Origin: Geomonas subterranea | Lineage (GTDB): Bacteria; Desulfobacterota; Desulfuromonadia; Geobacterales; Geobacteraceae | Direction: 5' to 3' | Assembly (NCBI RefSeq): GCF_019063845.1 | Contig: NZ_CP077683.1 | Location: 4,927,524 to 4,991,523 of the forward strand | DNA length: 64,000 nucleotides | Position numbers and translations under genes: made by a program | Shown: positions 34,176 through 39,872 of the stretch, piece by piece | Numbering within the stretch: position 1 is the stretch's first letter | Layout: each line of letters begins with the position of its first letter | Notes under the pieces: generated by a model | What the model saw: the letters and a program-made list of their open reading frames with translations, nothing else | Databases searched by the model: none | Told to the model about the DNA's origin: nothing

Positions 34176-36734
34176 TTAGTCGTCGTAGCGCTCCTTGCGC
34201 TTGAGACGGAGTTCGCTGAGCGTCGCCTTGCGGTAGATCACGTTACGGGTGACCGTGCTGCTGTTGCCGGCGGCGTCGGTGGCGGTCACGGTGATCACGT
34301 ACGTGCCGTTTTTCAGGAACCTGAGCTGCTGCTTGAAGAGGCCGGTGCTGTCGACCCTGGGCTTGTAGGTGCGGCCGCTCATCTTCACCAGGACGGTGGC
34401 CTTGCCGACCGTGTCGGCGACGGTGCCGGTGAGGACGATGCTGCTCTTGCTGGTGGTGATGTCCTGCGCCGGGTAGGTGACCGCCATGGTGAGGGCCCCG
34501 GTCGGGGTGTAGGTCACGGTACGCTTGGCGCTGGTGACGTTGCCGGCCAGGTCGGTCGCGGTGATGGTGATGGTGTTGACGCCGGCCACGAGGTTCACGG
34601 TCGCGCTGAAGGTGTTGCCGCTGATGGCGGCCGAGGTCTGGTTGCCGCCGTTGTCGGTCACGGTGACGGTGGAGCTTTCGTCGACGGTTCCGGTCACGGT
34701 GGTGAAGGACTGGGCGGAGTCGCTGTTGTCGCCGGGGGCGGTGATGGAGAGCACCGGCGCGGTCGGGTCGAAGGTGATGGTGCGGACGTCGCTCTGGGCG
34801 TTGCCGGCCTGGTCCGCTGCCACCACCGTGATCACGTTGGCGCCGGCCACCAGCGTGACGGCGGCGCTGAAGGAGCCGTCGGGGTTGACGGCGACCGCCT
34901 GGCCATTGATGGTGAGCGACTGCAGCCCACCGGCGTCGGTCGCGCTGCCGCTGATGTTGAGGGTCACCTTGTTGGTGTAGGAACCATCGGCCAGGGTCGA
35001 GACGACCAGGGTCGGGTTGGTGGTGTCGGCGGTCGGGGCGGGGATGGTCACGGTGACCGTCGCGCTCTTGCCGGCCGATACGTTTCCTGCCGCGTCCTTG
35101 GCGAATGCGTAGAACGTGTTGTTACCCTCGACCGCGGTGACCACCGCCGGGGGGGCCATGCTCCAGCCGATGGCGGAGGCGGACGGCGCGGCGGAGCCGG
35201 TGCTGATCAGGTAGCCGGTGACGGCGACGTTGTCGCTCGCCGTGAAGGCGGATACCGGGACGGTAAGGGTGGTCGCGGTGGCCGGCAGGGCGAAGCTACC
35301 GACGACCGGAGCGGTGGTGTCGGGGAGGGTGACGGTGACGGTGGCGCTCTTCGCCGCGGAGACGTTGCCGGCGGCGTCTTTGGCCCAGGCGTAGAAGGTG
35401 TTGCTCCCGGCGACGGCGGTGACGCTGGCCGGAGCGGTGGCGCTCCACCCGGCTGCGGAGGCGGACGGAGCTGCGGAGCTGGTGGTGACCAGGTAGCCGG
35501 TGACGGCGACGTTGTCGGTGGCGGTGAATGCGGAAACCGGAACGGTCAGGCTGGTTGCGGTGGCCGGCAGGGTGAAGGTCCCCACCACCGGAGCGGTGGT
35601 GTCGGGGAGGGTGACGGTGACGGTGGCGCTCCTCGCTGCGGAGACGTTGCCGGCGGCGTCTTTGGCCCAGGCGTAAAAGGTGTTGCTCCCGGCGACGGCG
35701 GTGACGCTGGCCGGAGCGGTGGCGCTCCATCCCGCGGCGGAGGCGGACGGAGCCGCGGAGCTGGTGGTGACCAGGTAGCCGGTGACGGCGACGTTGTCGG
35801 TAGCGGTGAAGGCGGAGACCGGGACGGTCAGGGTGGTCGCGGTGGCCGGCAGGGTGAAGCTACCGACGACCGGTGCGGTGGTGTCGGGGAGGGTCACGGT
35901 CACGGTGGCGCTCTTCGCTGCGGAGACGTTGCCGGCGGCGTCCTTGGCCCAGGCGTAGAAGGTGTTGCTCCCCTCGACGGCGGTGACGCTTGCGGGCGCG
36001 GTGGCGCTCCATCCCGCAGCGGAGGCGGACGGAACCGCGGAGCTGGTGGTTACCAGGTAACCGGTGACGGCGACGTTGTCGGTGGCGGTGAAGGCGGAGA
36101 CCGGCACGGCCAGGGTGGTCGCGGTGGCCGGAAGCGTGAAGCTGCCGACGACCGGCGCGGTGGTGTCGGCGGCGGGCGCCGCTGCGACGGTGAAGGAGTT
36201 GGTGCTGACCATCTCGTAGCCGTGGTTGGGGTTGTTGGCGTCGGGCGTCCAGCTGCCGAAGGCGGCCGAAGATATGTCGTACTGGTTGCCATACCACCCC
36301 ACCTGCCAGGTGTAGGTGCCGGCCGCCGTGGGGGCCGGTGCGGTCAGGATCGCGGGGAGGGTGGTGGAGCTTCCCATGCCGCTTGCTGTGCCGGTGGAGA
36401 TGGCGAGCTGGGTGCCGCTTTGGTCGAGCAGGACGGCGCGGACCCAGCCGGTGCGGTAACCGCCGGCTATGGTGACGGACACGGTTTCACCGGGAGCATA
36501 GGAGGTCTTGTTGGTGGTGCCGCTCACGTTGATGGTGTTTTTCGTGCTCGTGGCATGGGTGCCGTGGGCGTGACAGCCGTTGCAGGTGGCGGTCGTGGTA
36601 TGGCAGTTCACGCACCCCATGGTCGTATAGTAGGACGACTGTGCCTGCGCCTCGTTGCGCCAGAGCTGAAAGGACAGCAGGGACAGTGCGAAGACAAACA
36701 GCACCAGCAACCTTCCTTGATTCTTTTGAGTCAT
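34176..36734 (-). CDS. Diheme surface protein with repeated Ig-like domains
   Basis: An 852-residue exported protein. The signal peptide (MTQKNQGRLLVLFVFALSLL...NEAQA) is followed by two heme sites, CVNCH and CNGCH. After a roughly 140-residue segment come four nearly identical 94-residue repeats starting DTTAPVVGSFTLPATATTL and containing NTFYAWAKDAAGNVS, then three further divergent Ig-like domains (GSYTNKVTLNISGSATD..., TVDESSTVTVTDNGGN..., AQDITTSKSSIVLTGTV). The C-terminus is basic (LRLKRKERYDD). The repeats are a fibronectin/Ig-like stalk typical of adhesins. It is probably extracellular, linking a heme pair to a cell-surface stalk. Start ATG 36734 with AAGGAG. Expression is under two tandem GEMM riboswitches. 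Confidence 0.9.
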   Translation of the reverse strand: MTQKNQGRLLVLFVFALSLLSFQLWRNEAQAQSSYYTTMGCVNCHTTTATCNGCHAHGTHATSTKNTINVSGTTNKTSYAPGETVSVTIAGGYRTGWVRAVLLDQSGTQLAISTGTASGMGSSTTLPAILTAPAPTAAGTYTWQVGWYGNQYDISSAAFGSWTPDANNPNHGYEMVSTNSFTVAAAPAADTTAPVVGSFTLPATATTLAVPVSAFTATDNVAVTGYLVTTSSAVPSASAAGWSATAPASVTAVEGSNTFYAWAKDAAGNVSAAKSATVTVTLPDTTAPVVGSFTLPATATTLTVPVSAFTATDNVAVTGYLVTTSSAAPSASAAGWSATAPASVTAVAGSNTFYAWAKDAAGNVSAARSATVTVTLPDTTAPVVGTFTLPATATSLTVPVSAFTATDNVAVTGYLVTTSSAAPSASAAGWSATAPASVTAVAGSNTFYAWAKDAAGNVSAAKSATVTVTLPDTTAPVVGSFALPATATTLTVPVSAFTASDNVAVTGYLISTGSAAPSASAIGWSMAPPAVVTAVEGNNTFYAFAKDAAGNVSAGKSATVTVTIPAPTADTTNPTLVVSTLADGSYTNKVTLNISGSATDAGGLQSLTINGQAVAVNPDGSFSAAVTLVAGANVITVVAADQAGNAQSDVRTITFDPTAPVLSITAPGDNSDSAQSFTTVTGTVDESSTVTVTDNGGNQTSAAISGNTFSATVNLVAGVNTITITATDLAGNVTSAKRTVTYTPTGALTMAVTYPAQDITTSKSSIVLTGTVADTVGKATVLVKMSGRTYKPRVDSTGLFKQQLRFLKNGTYVITVTATDAAGNSSTVTRNVIYRKATLSELRLKRKERYDD
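35040..36167 (-). repeat. Four tandem 282-bp coding repeats
   Basis: Units start, on the minus strand, at 36167, 35885, 35603 and 35321, each exactly 282 bp (94 codons). They are almost identical in protein sequence; the fourth is the most divergent (ISTGSAAPSASAIGWSMAPP). The units should recombine easily, giving length variation of the stalk. Confidence 0.9.
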
Positions 36735-36932: not shown

Positions 36933-37045
36933 AAAAAAGCCGGGCGCGAACATCGTGAAGATATTTCGGCGACCCGGCTGTCTCAGTGAGACCCTTAGGC
37001 TTTCCGTCCCACCCTCGCGGGTGGTTTAGCATTGTCGTGTATCAG
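36933..37045 (-). promoter_or_regulatory. GEMM-I cyclic-dinucleotide riboswitch, proximal copy (G at position 20)
   Basis: On the minus strand the aptamer core reads TGCTAAACC, a stem closed by a GCGA tetraloop, GGGACGGAAAGCC, a P3 stem (GTCTCA-C-TGAGAC) and GCCGGGTCGCCG. This matches the GEMM-I (c-di-GMP-I) consensus. It is followed by a terminator, AGCCGGG..CCCGGCT plus six Ts (36933-36979), that shares bases with the aptamer's 3' strand, so it looks like a transcription-termination switch. At the position aligned to Vc2 G20 the base is G (plus-strand C at 37030). It lies about 200 bases upstream of the diheme Ig-repeat gene. Confidence 0.85.
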
Positions 37046-37125
37046 GGCTTTGGCTCCGCAGGGACGCTGCGGATATGTGGTCCAGGTTGGCGTTACGTCA
37101 AGGTATCTCCCCAGAAATTGCGCGC

Positions 37126-37240
37126 AAAAAAGCCGGGCGCGAATATCGTGAGTGATATTTCGGCGACCCGGCTATCTCGGTGAGACCCTTAGGCTTTCCG
37201 TCCCACCCTCGCGGGTGGTTTAGTATTATCGTGTACCACG
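37126..37240 (-). promoter_or_regulatory. GEMM-I riboswitch, distal copy (A at position 20)
   Basis: A second aptamer nearly identical to the proximal one (TAAACC, GCGA tetraloop, GGGACGGAAAGCC, P3, GCCGGGTCGCCG) with its own terminator (37126-37173, AAAAAA on the plus strand as T-run). Here the base aligned to Vc2 G20 is A (TACTAAACC; plus-strand T at 37224). A20 is the mark of GEMM-Ib aptamers that prefer 3',3'-cGAMP. The P1 arm GATA/TATC pairs well, and its 3' strand is also part of the terminator stem, which predicts that ligand favours read-through. Confidence 0.82.
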
Positions 37241-37263: not shown

Positions 37264-37292
37264 AGATATCTTATTGGCACAAAATTGGTCAA
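37264..37292 (-). promoter_or_regulatory. Possible sigma-70 promoter of the riboswitch transcript
   Basis: On the minus strand TTGACC (37292-37287), a 17-base spacer and ATATCT (37269-37264). It lies 25 bases upstream of the distal aptamer. The -10 is weak. Confidence 0.4.
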
Positions 37293-38423: not shown

Positions 38424-39872
38424 TCATTCGATGCACCCGCAACCAACGCCGGTGTGGCAACCTGCTTCGCTCTTCACCCCCCAGCGCCTCAGGCCGAAAC
38501 TGATCGCCTTCAGCAAGTTGCTGCGGTTGTACGGCTTCTGGTTCAAAAAGAAGTGCGGGTCGTTGCCCAGGTGCATGTAGAACTCTCCGGCTGCCTCCGG
38601 GGAACCGGACACGGCGCACAGGGTGGTCATGGGAAACTTCTCGTTCTTTCCCTCCAGGTCGCGCATCATCTGCGCCGTCTTCGCCCCGGTCATGCCGGGA
38701 AGCCTGTAGTCGAGACAGACCAGACCATAGGGTGCCTCCTGCTCAAGCCCCGCGCCGAATTTCTCCAGCGCCTCCTCGCCTGTTTTGACGCACTCCACCT
38801 GACAGTATGGGGACAGTACGCGTTCCAAAAGCCTGCAGTCCAGCTCATCATCATCAACTATGAGTGCGCGCATCGGGTTCTCCTTGGGAGCTGTGCCCTG
38901 TTGCGGTGCAGCGGGAGGCTGGCTCCCCTGCGCCTGGATTCGCATGAACGGGACGACCTTGCTTGTCGCCCCGGTGGCCTTCGACCGGTGGCAACGGGTG
39001 GCGGCTTCGTGGCCGTGCGGCTTCGCGGAGAGGACCGGGGCCTGGGAGCCGGGGAGGGGGGCCTCGTCACCGCTGCAGGAGATGAGTTCGAACTCCGGTA
39101 TTAGCCGCTCGAACGCCCTGACCACACCGGGGTCGAACTTGGTGCCGGCCAGGGAGATGATGTGTTGCGCGGCTCGCGGCACGCTCACGGCCTCCTTGTA
39201 GATGCGGGTGGAGGTGAGGGCGTCGAAGACGTCGGCAACCGAGACGATGCGCGCGGCGAGAGGGATCGCCTCACCGGCCAGGCCGTCCGGGTACCCCGCG
39301 CCGTCCCAGCGCTCGTGGTGCCAAAGCGCCACGTCCATGGCCATCTGGAACAGCTCGCTCGGCTCCGGCTGGGCCGCGTTGCCGTTGTGATTGCAGTCTT
39401 CGTTGACCGCCGCGATGATGTCGTGGCCGATGCGGGTGTGGCGCTGCATCACCTCGTACTCGAAAGGGTCGAGTGGGGCCGGCTTCAAGAGGATCCGGTC
39501 GGGGATCCCGATCTTGCCGATATCGTGCAGCGGGACCACCTTGGCCAGGCGCTGGATCCATCCCCGGCTCAACCTTTGGGGATAGAGGGGATCGCTCGTG
39601 AGGGCCGAGGCGAGGAGGAGCGCGTACCGCTGCACCCGCTTGACGTGCCTCCCCGTTTCCAGGTCCCGCGCGTTGGCGATGTTCACCAGCAGTCCTATCG
39701 CCAGTTCGCAGGCTTCGCTCCTCGACTGGCGGTGCAACTCCACCTCCTGCCGCAGGCGCTGGTTCTCCGCCTGCAGCAGCTGGAGGGTGCCGGTGGGGTG
39801 TCCCGCCTGCATCTGCTGGTGGGGAATCCACGCTTCTTGCCGCACGTGCTTTTGTGATTCTGTGAACGTCAC
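38424..39872 (-). CDS. HD-GYP phosphodiesterase with C-terminal receiver domain
   Basis: A 482-residue cyclic dinucleotide phosphodiesterase, predicted cytoplasmic. A short coiled coil precedes the HD-GYP domain (about residues 50-265), which has the catalytic HDIGKIGIPD and HHERWDGAGYPDGL. After an unstructured linker a receiver (REC) domain starts at about residue 340 (RALIVDDDELDCRLLERVL), with phospho-acceptor Asp in LVCLDYRLPG and the conserved Lys in LNQKPYN. REC at the C-terminus of HD-GYP is the reverse of the common order. No cognate kinase is adjacent. Start is GTG with GGAG at proper spacing. Substrate (c-di-GMP or 3',3'-cGAMP) is not readable; both are used in Geobacter-type cells. 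Confidence 0.85.
   Translation of the reverse strand: MTFTESQKHVRQEAWIPHQQMQAGHPTGTLQLLQAENQRLRQEVELHRQSRSEACELAIGLLVNIANARDLETGRHVKRVQRYALLLASALTSDPLYPQRLSRGWIQRLAKVVPLHDIGKIGIPDRILLKPAPLDPFEYEVMQRHTRIGHDIIAAVNEDCNHNGNAAQPEPSELFQMAMDVALWHHERWDGAGYPDGLAGEAIPLAARIVSVADVFDALTSTRIYKEAVSVPRAAQHIISLAGTKFDPGVVRAFERLIPEFELISCSGDEAPLPGSQAPVLSAKPHGHEAATRCHRSKATGATSKVVPFMRIQAQGSQPPAAPQQGTAPKENPMRALIVDDDELDCRLLERVLSPYCQVECVKTGEEALEKFGAGLEQEAPYGLVCLDYRLPGMTGAKTAQMMRDLEGKNEKFPMTTLCAVSGSPEAAGEFYMHLGNDPHFFLNQKPYNRSNLLKAISFGLRRWGVKSEAGCHTGVGCGCIE

Follow-up and report, generated by a model that had tools for sequence, protein, structure and literature searches.

Tandem copies of the GEMM-Ib riboswitch are known from Geobacter sulfurreducens. 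Such Geobacter tandems (e.g., the one upstream of GSU2885) overlap their terminators in an ON layout, precede genes for cytochromes or surface proteins and have been treated as cGAMP switches (PMC6456294). A single switch on a similar scaffold, that of Gmet_0970, was turned from cGAMP to c-di-GMP selectivity by an engineered A20G substitution and has been used to report on c-di-GMP in vivo (PMC6456294). Tandem riboswitches have been reviewed more broadly, with 15 two-input arrangements counted and 347 c-di-GMP-I doublets treated as one class (PMC9481103). Table 2 of that review, as shown, includes ppGpp/T box, glycine/c-di-GMP-I, AdoCbl/c-AMP-GMP and other pairs, and a c-AMP-GMP/c-di-GMP pair is absent from it. 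The triple-tandem c-di-GMP riboswitch Bc3-5 of Bacillus thuringiensis (PMC4759541) represents the case in which aptamers lie in series but all use one ligand.

The leader analyzed here shares the scaffold, the terminator-overlap layout and the type of downstream gene with the Geobacter GEMM-Ib tandems, but differs from them by a G at Vc2 position 20 of its proximal copy. This is the base change that was engineered into Gmet_0970, except that here it is natural and lies behind an A20 switch. Like the two-input gates of the review, the leader has two aptamers with separate terminators, a combination that in the ON/ON case amounts to an AND gate (PMC9481103). A cGAMP/c-di-GMP tandem gate was not found among the titles and abstract openings of the papers located by full-text search; one may be mentioned in the pair of PNAS papers of 2015 in which GEMM-Ib was defined. 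What appears to be new is the pairing of A20 with a following G20, putatively as a gate for cGAMP and c-di-GMP. On balance, we lean towards the reading that the leader of this gene, which encodes a diheme protein with Ig repeats, consists of two serial ON switches that would together require cGAMP and c-di-GMP.

Aptamers, terminators and the downstream gene

The window, i.e. the whole 64-kb stretch of DNA that was analyzed, is the terminal part of the 4.99-Mb genome of Geomonas subterranea, which is a single contig rated 100% complete. A cmscan search with 4227 Rfam families at the gathering threshold found two GEMM-I aptamers in the window, both on the minus strand. The distal aptamer (37159..37234, minus strand; RF01051, 46.9 bits, E 5.1e-6) is of the A20 type and is predicted to sense 3',3'-cGAMP. 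The proximal aptamer (36965..37040, minus strand; RF01051, 50.6 bits, E 6.3e-7) carries G20 on a GEMM-Ib scaffold and is predicted to sense c-di-GMP. The two are offset by 194 bases and, as read from the Rfam alignments, differ at 4 of 76 nt. A first-pass annotation, made from the letters alone, had described a near-identical GEMM-I pair on this strand, each copy with its own terminator, and had proposed covariance-model scoring as a check. The description was accurate, and both copies score above the RF01051 gathering cut-off of 35.

Each aptamer runs straight into a GC-rich, terminator-like hairpin followed by T6. These hairpins lie at 37126..37173 for the distal copy (minus strand; -24.8 kcal/mol, z -4.2) and at 36933..36979 for the proximal copy (minus strand; -24.2 kcal/mol, z -4.3), and neither was matched in stability by any of 200 shuffles. 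Both were absent from a simple terminator scan of the window, probably owing to their interior bulges. Since the 5' arm of each hairpin is the 3' strand of its aptamer, aptamer and terminator are expected to compete; the shared strand makes the two structures mutually exclusive, as in an ON switch. A similar layout of aptamer and terminator is found in the pilM riboswitch of G. metallireducens, which is an ON switch (PMC9262584). Folds computed without ligand or tertiary contacts gave P2 and P3 in both isolated 81-nt aptamers. Constrained folds, again without ligand or tertiary contacts, gave P2 and P3 in the proximal copy when the 3' arm of the terminator was barred; in the distal copy with the terminator barred, P2 formed and an alternative helix took the place of P3.

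The gene that follows (34176..36734, minus strand) encodes an 852-aa protein with CxxCH motifs at residues 41 and 51 and Ig-like domain matches (Glucodextran_B, Big_13 and Big_6), and some of its homologues carry the same leader. This agrees with the diheme, Ig-repeat gene anticipated by the annotation, and the protein is probably located at the cell surface.

A promoter-like block, TTGACC-16-GATATC (37265..37292, minus strand), is found shortly before the distal aptamer. The six orthologous leaders that were aligned have an unchanged TTGACC and, in the -10-like block, a common ATAT; the sequence upstream of the block is not conserved among these leaders. The consensus promoter scan of the window did not list this putative promoter. 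The spacer that separates the proximal aptamer from the distal T-run measures ~90 nt and is conserved in short stretches, overall less so than TTGACC. This partial conservation could reflect an internal promoter between the aptamers, in which case a second transcript would be governed by the proximal G20 switch alone and the gene would respond to c-di-GMP by itself or in an OR-like manner. Such a promoter seems to us very improbable. The TTGACC that precedes the distal aptamer is invariant across six leaders, unlike the spacer, and no sigma-70-like site is listed within the spacer, although the same scan missed the better conserved upstream block.

An HD-GYP gene (38424-39872, minus strand; motif HHERWDGAGYP, C-terminal response-regulator domain) lies further upstream, adjoined by genes for a TPR protein and a large PAS histidine kinase. 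The annotation had placed it 1.4 kb upstream and suggested that it could tune the riboswitch pair. The gene is indeed present, but its end lies ~1.2 kb upstream of the distal aptamer, and the suggested tuning is not borne out by comparison. In tblastn searches of five close relatives, the ~6 kb preceding the same tandem yielded no HD-GYP homologue, which rules out tuning by this gene as a conserved feature. Among seven stretches searched in the same way (the five close relatives, G036 and the host genome itself), the HD-GYP and kinase proteins matched only their own locus, and the TPR protein matched its own locus and one 43-residue segment in G013.

The specificity base and its history

In the printed RF01051 alignments, Vc2 position 20 corresponds to model position 11, where the distal copy has A (37224, minus strand) and the proximal copy G (37030, minus strand), as the annotation had assigned them. 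In both aptamers the next base on the 3' side belongs to the C-G pair with which P2 begins. The counterpart in the cGAMP riboswitch of Geobacter, A14, ends J1/2, adjoins C15-G40 and contacts the ligand, while A41 constitutes J2/3 (PMC6274999). Because the window's aptamers have the same neighbors as A14, the register at position 20 is unshifted. A shifted alignment, which the annotation had named among the outcomes that would refute it, is ruled out by the Rfam alignment together with the published description of the pocket (PMC6274999). The distal copy has the A that defines GEMM-Ib; the proximal copy has the G of c-di-GMP-type GEMM-I aptamers, and the remainder of its scaffold is GEMM-Ib-like. 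Based on these bases, we predict that the distal aptamer responds to 3',3'-cGAMP and the proximal aptamer to c-di-GMP.

Position 20 is a base that biases ligand choice rather than dictating it. It has been described as a selectivity factor and not a hard filter, and cGAMP riboswitches are able to bind c-di-GMP (PMC9262584). Moreover, the riboswitch of the OmcST operon in G. sulfurreducens is reported to sense both ligands (PMC6456294), and c-di-GMP-I doublets have been credited with sharper switching (PMC9481103). These reports are in keeping with a tandem whose two aptamers still have one main ligand in common (cGAMP, or both ligands) and would only make the response to dose steeper, as in the A20/A20 form presumed to be ancestral. 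We regard this explanation as unlikely, although not negligible. The engineered A20G change yielded c-di-GMP selectivity on this kind of scaffold (PMC6456294), and the distribution of G20 at other loci, described below, also speaks against it.

The host genome contains 14 GEMM-I matches. Position 20 is A in 11 of these (nine on the GEMM-Ib scaffold and two on another) and G in three, comprising the proximal copy and two elements on other scaffolds (one, L009, assigned by eye). The proximal copy is the sole G20 on an Ib scaffold in this genome. The two A20 elements that are not on the GEMM-Ib scaffold (L002 and L003; G000:C1:1437748-1437828 and 3275292-3275374) score ~65 bits and read GAGCAAA around position 20; an assignment of these two to the G20 type is rejected, as model position 11 is A.

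To place the window's G20 in its lineage, we scanned 30 loci for the downstream protein, namely the locus of the window and 29 others. The same tandem was present at nine of the 29 other loci, with identities of 70-94% over long stretches, and all nine were A20/A20. Five of these tandems belong to the same genus (G012, G013, G021, G022 and G024) and four to other genera (G007, G008, G009 and G036). The other 20 loci comprised one with a single A20 element (L066), one with another GEMM-I element (L069) and 18 without GEMM-I, the last being fragments or more distant matches. Since the nine other homologous tandems are A20/A20, the window's G20 appears to be derived. By parsimony, used here in place of a tree, the proximal copy would have changed from A to G in the window lineage by one transition, starting from an A20/A20 tandem.

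At the window's own locus G20 occurs in one genome only, and the change may be very recent or a base-call error at 37030. Purine transitions are, in general, common substitutions. An unselected or erroneous G20 at a redundant copy would mean that, in effect, the distal cGAMP switch controls the gene and that the proximal terminator is constitutive or weak. We find this improbable. In a six-way alignment of the window with five close relatives, the 76-nt proximal aptamer differs from all others at one base alone, position 20, so that the single difference falls exactly on the specificity base, and the remainder of the aptamer and its terminator are intact. The rating of the genome as complete, in a single contig, likewise argues against an error, as does the recurrence of the A20/G20 state at two other loci.

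Recurrence of A20-first leaders

A strict, spacing-limited pattern of the GEMM-Ib scaffold was run over 141 genomes of the order. Its counts, which are lower bounds, were 667 A20 sites in 118 genomes and 11 G20 sites in 10. The GTDB named collection gave seven stretches with G20, with records of the window's own genome possibly excluded. Five of the 11 sites in the order lie behind an A20 copy, namely the window's proximal aptamer and those of G014, G015, G023 and G040. The others are a site at a contig edge in G044, a lone one in G036, a G20/G20 pair in G081 and one site each in G056 and G057, located ~1 kb downstream of an A20 switch, with an ORF in between in G056. The G081 pair (L091; G081:C1:202006 and 202150), with members 144 bases apart, is the only G20/G20 tandem on the GEMM-Ib scaffold that we met, and it looks as if a whole tandem had been converted. 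Elements with G20 on an Ib-like core were also seen at L081-L083 and at L079, a record labelled as a Methylococcaceae MAG; these score best with RF03167 (c-di-GMP-I-GGC) and not with RF01051.

The mixed state was traced at two loci besides that of the window. Among 30 scanned loci of a lipoprotein with a cytochrome domain, three leaders are A20/G20 (G014, G015 and G023), three are A20/A20 (G033, G006 and G037), five have one A20 element (G007, G008, G009, G041 and G045), one has a single G20 element (G036) and 18 have none. At the locus of an L,D-transpeptidase with SPOR and LysM domains, also with 30 scanned, 16 leaders are A20/A20, six have one A20 element and one is A20/G20 (G040); the G20 of G044 stands at a contig edge, and the six most distant loci are without an element. 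G014 and G023 both retain G20 in proximal aptamers of 96% identity, while identity is 87% at the beginning of their coding regions and 71-84% in the non-aptamer segments of their leaders. Retention of G20 despite this divergence of the surrounding leader speaks against neutral decay.

These loci also bear on the idea that both aptamers of such a tandem share a ligand. A20/A20 is clearly the common form: at a spacing of 166-226, 55 A20-first pairs were found (from 54 places, as L237 has two), and the second copy, classified by eye, is A20 in 51 and G20 in four. Against a common ligand stand the occurrence of proximal G20 at three unrelated loci and its retention across three species at one of them. 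G20 is enriched among second-of-tandem places (4/55 vs 7/623 elsewhere; Fisher p 0.008), in an approximate comparison that ignores ancestry, in which three of the four are orthologues and the total rests on a strict pattern that not all second copies match.

A second architecture brings together the same two types of aptamer. Eight of the 30 loci (L015-L044) from a family-wide RF01051 search, as distinct from the whole-genome scans, start with a single A20 switch or a pair of them, with T-runs, and continue with a G20 GEMM-Ia aptamer (in G003, G006, G007, G008, G009, G036, G041 and G045). The proteins encoded after these leaders are mutually similar by BLAST, with one weak fn3 match that is below the cut-off. 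On the 3' side of the Ia aptamer, complementary blocks surround a Shine-Dalgarno-like sequence, either of the GUACCUC/GAGGUAC type or as ACUCCUUC/GAAGGAGU, which suggests control of translation. Folds containing both blocks were obtained for G003, G006, G008 and G009, and the pairing in G007, G036, G041 and G045 was read from the sequence; in G045 the block is followed by T5, and a terminator is possible there. It is possible that these leaders of related surface-protein genes (L030, L015, L016-L019, L021 and L022) exert control in two layers, first on transcription and then on translation.

The order of the two types was also considered. Pattern matches to this second kind of leader were found at narrow spacing in one of 141 genomes (G003) and at a spacing of 226-286 in four (G006, G041, G045 and G046), the last of which has three A20 elements and no GEMM-Ia G20. 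The opposite order, GEMM-Ia first and A20 second, was found in none of the 141 genomes at a spacing of ~156-216 and at none of the 34 loci examined. Similarly, no A20 element was found downstream of any of the 11 Ib-scaffold G20 sites in the DNA examined around them. Every mixed leader found has A20 first; the patterns were themselves mostly A20-first, and this order has thus been tested less thoroughly than the occurrence of mixed pairs.

Second messengers and the putative gate

GGDEF domains were matched 29 times in the host genome, in 28 genes. Three of these genes have Ser or Thr in place of the base-selecting Asp of GHxxGD (L173, GHLIGS...GGDEY; L176, GHLAGT; L182, GYAKGS...GGDDF), and the other 25 retain the Asp. 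A Ser at this place is what we take to be the mark of Hypr enzymes. The host would, by these motifs, encode candidates both for Hypr-like enzymes, which would make cGAMP, and for ordinary GGDEF enzymes. GSU1937, an enzyme with the GGDDF motif, was active as a cGAMP synthase when assayed with a biosensor (PMC8835794). As a separate observation, the GGDEF domain of another host gene (L167; G000:C1:2532823-2533290, minus strand) starts ~0.65 kb downstream of an A20 GEMM-Ib riboswitch (L005; 2533942-2534017, minus strand), and this cyclase-like gene may itself be under cGAMP control.

The leader has the architecture of a two-input device, with two aptamers that differ in their specificity base and that each precede a terminator-like hairpin, all ahead of one gene; the two ligands are predicted from those bases. 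In the mechanism that we propose, the cognate ligand would stabilize each aptamer and block its terminator, as in the pilM riboswitch of G. metallireducens. Polymerase would get to the gene only with both aptamers occupied, and read-through would approximate the product of the two individual values. cGAMP and c-di-GMP are described as antagonistic, and in G. sulfurreducens the cGAMP synthase GacA is reportedly inhibited by c-di-GMP (PMC6456294). In Geobacter, loss of gacA is reported to lower cGAMP, and loss of esnD to lower c-di-GMP and raise cGAMP. Because of this inhibition, a need for both signals would confine expression to a middle range of c-di-GMP, i.e. a band-pass response.

A two-input gate had already been raised in the first-pass annotation. 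It is strengthened by our results because tandems with A20 first and G20 second recur, one of them in three species, and because Hypr-like and ordinary GGDEF genes are both encoded. The annotated difference between A20 and G20 has held up as well, and only the part assigned to the HD-GYP gene is to be dropped. A wider proposal, which we put forward tentatively and would not call probable, is that the Geobacteraceae have repeatedly built gates with cGAMP first and c-di-GMP last: at least three times by an A20-to-G change in the proximal duplicate and once by means of a classical c-di-GMP aptamer that apparently controls translation. Such leaders could constitute a natural RNA band-pass filter for the choice of electron-acceptor surface.

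The change from A20/A20 to A20/G20 would be a natural example of RNA logic altered by one base. It would make the integration of two near-identical second messengers in one cell accessible to testing and would provide a natural gate with two cyclic dinucleotides as inputs for use in synthetic biology. Geobacter is reportedly steered by cGAMP and c-di-GMP, in opposition, to different extracellular electron acceptors. With this in mind, a leader that needs both signals would, if the proposal is true, be a direct readout of the overlap between cGAMP and c-di-GMP.
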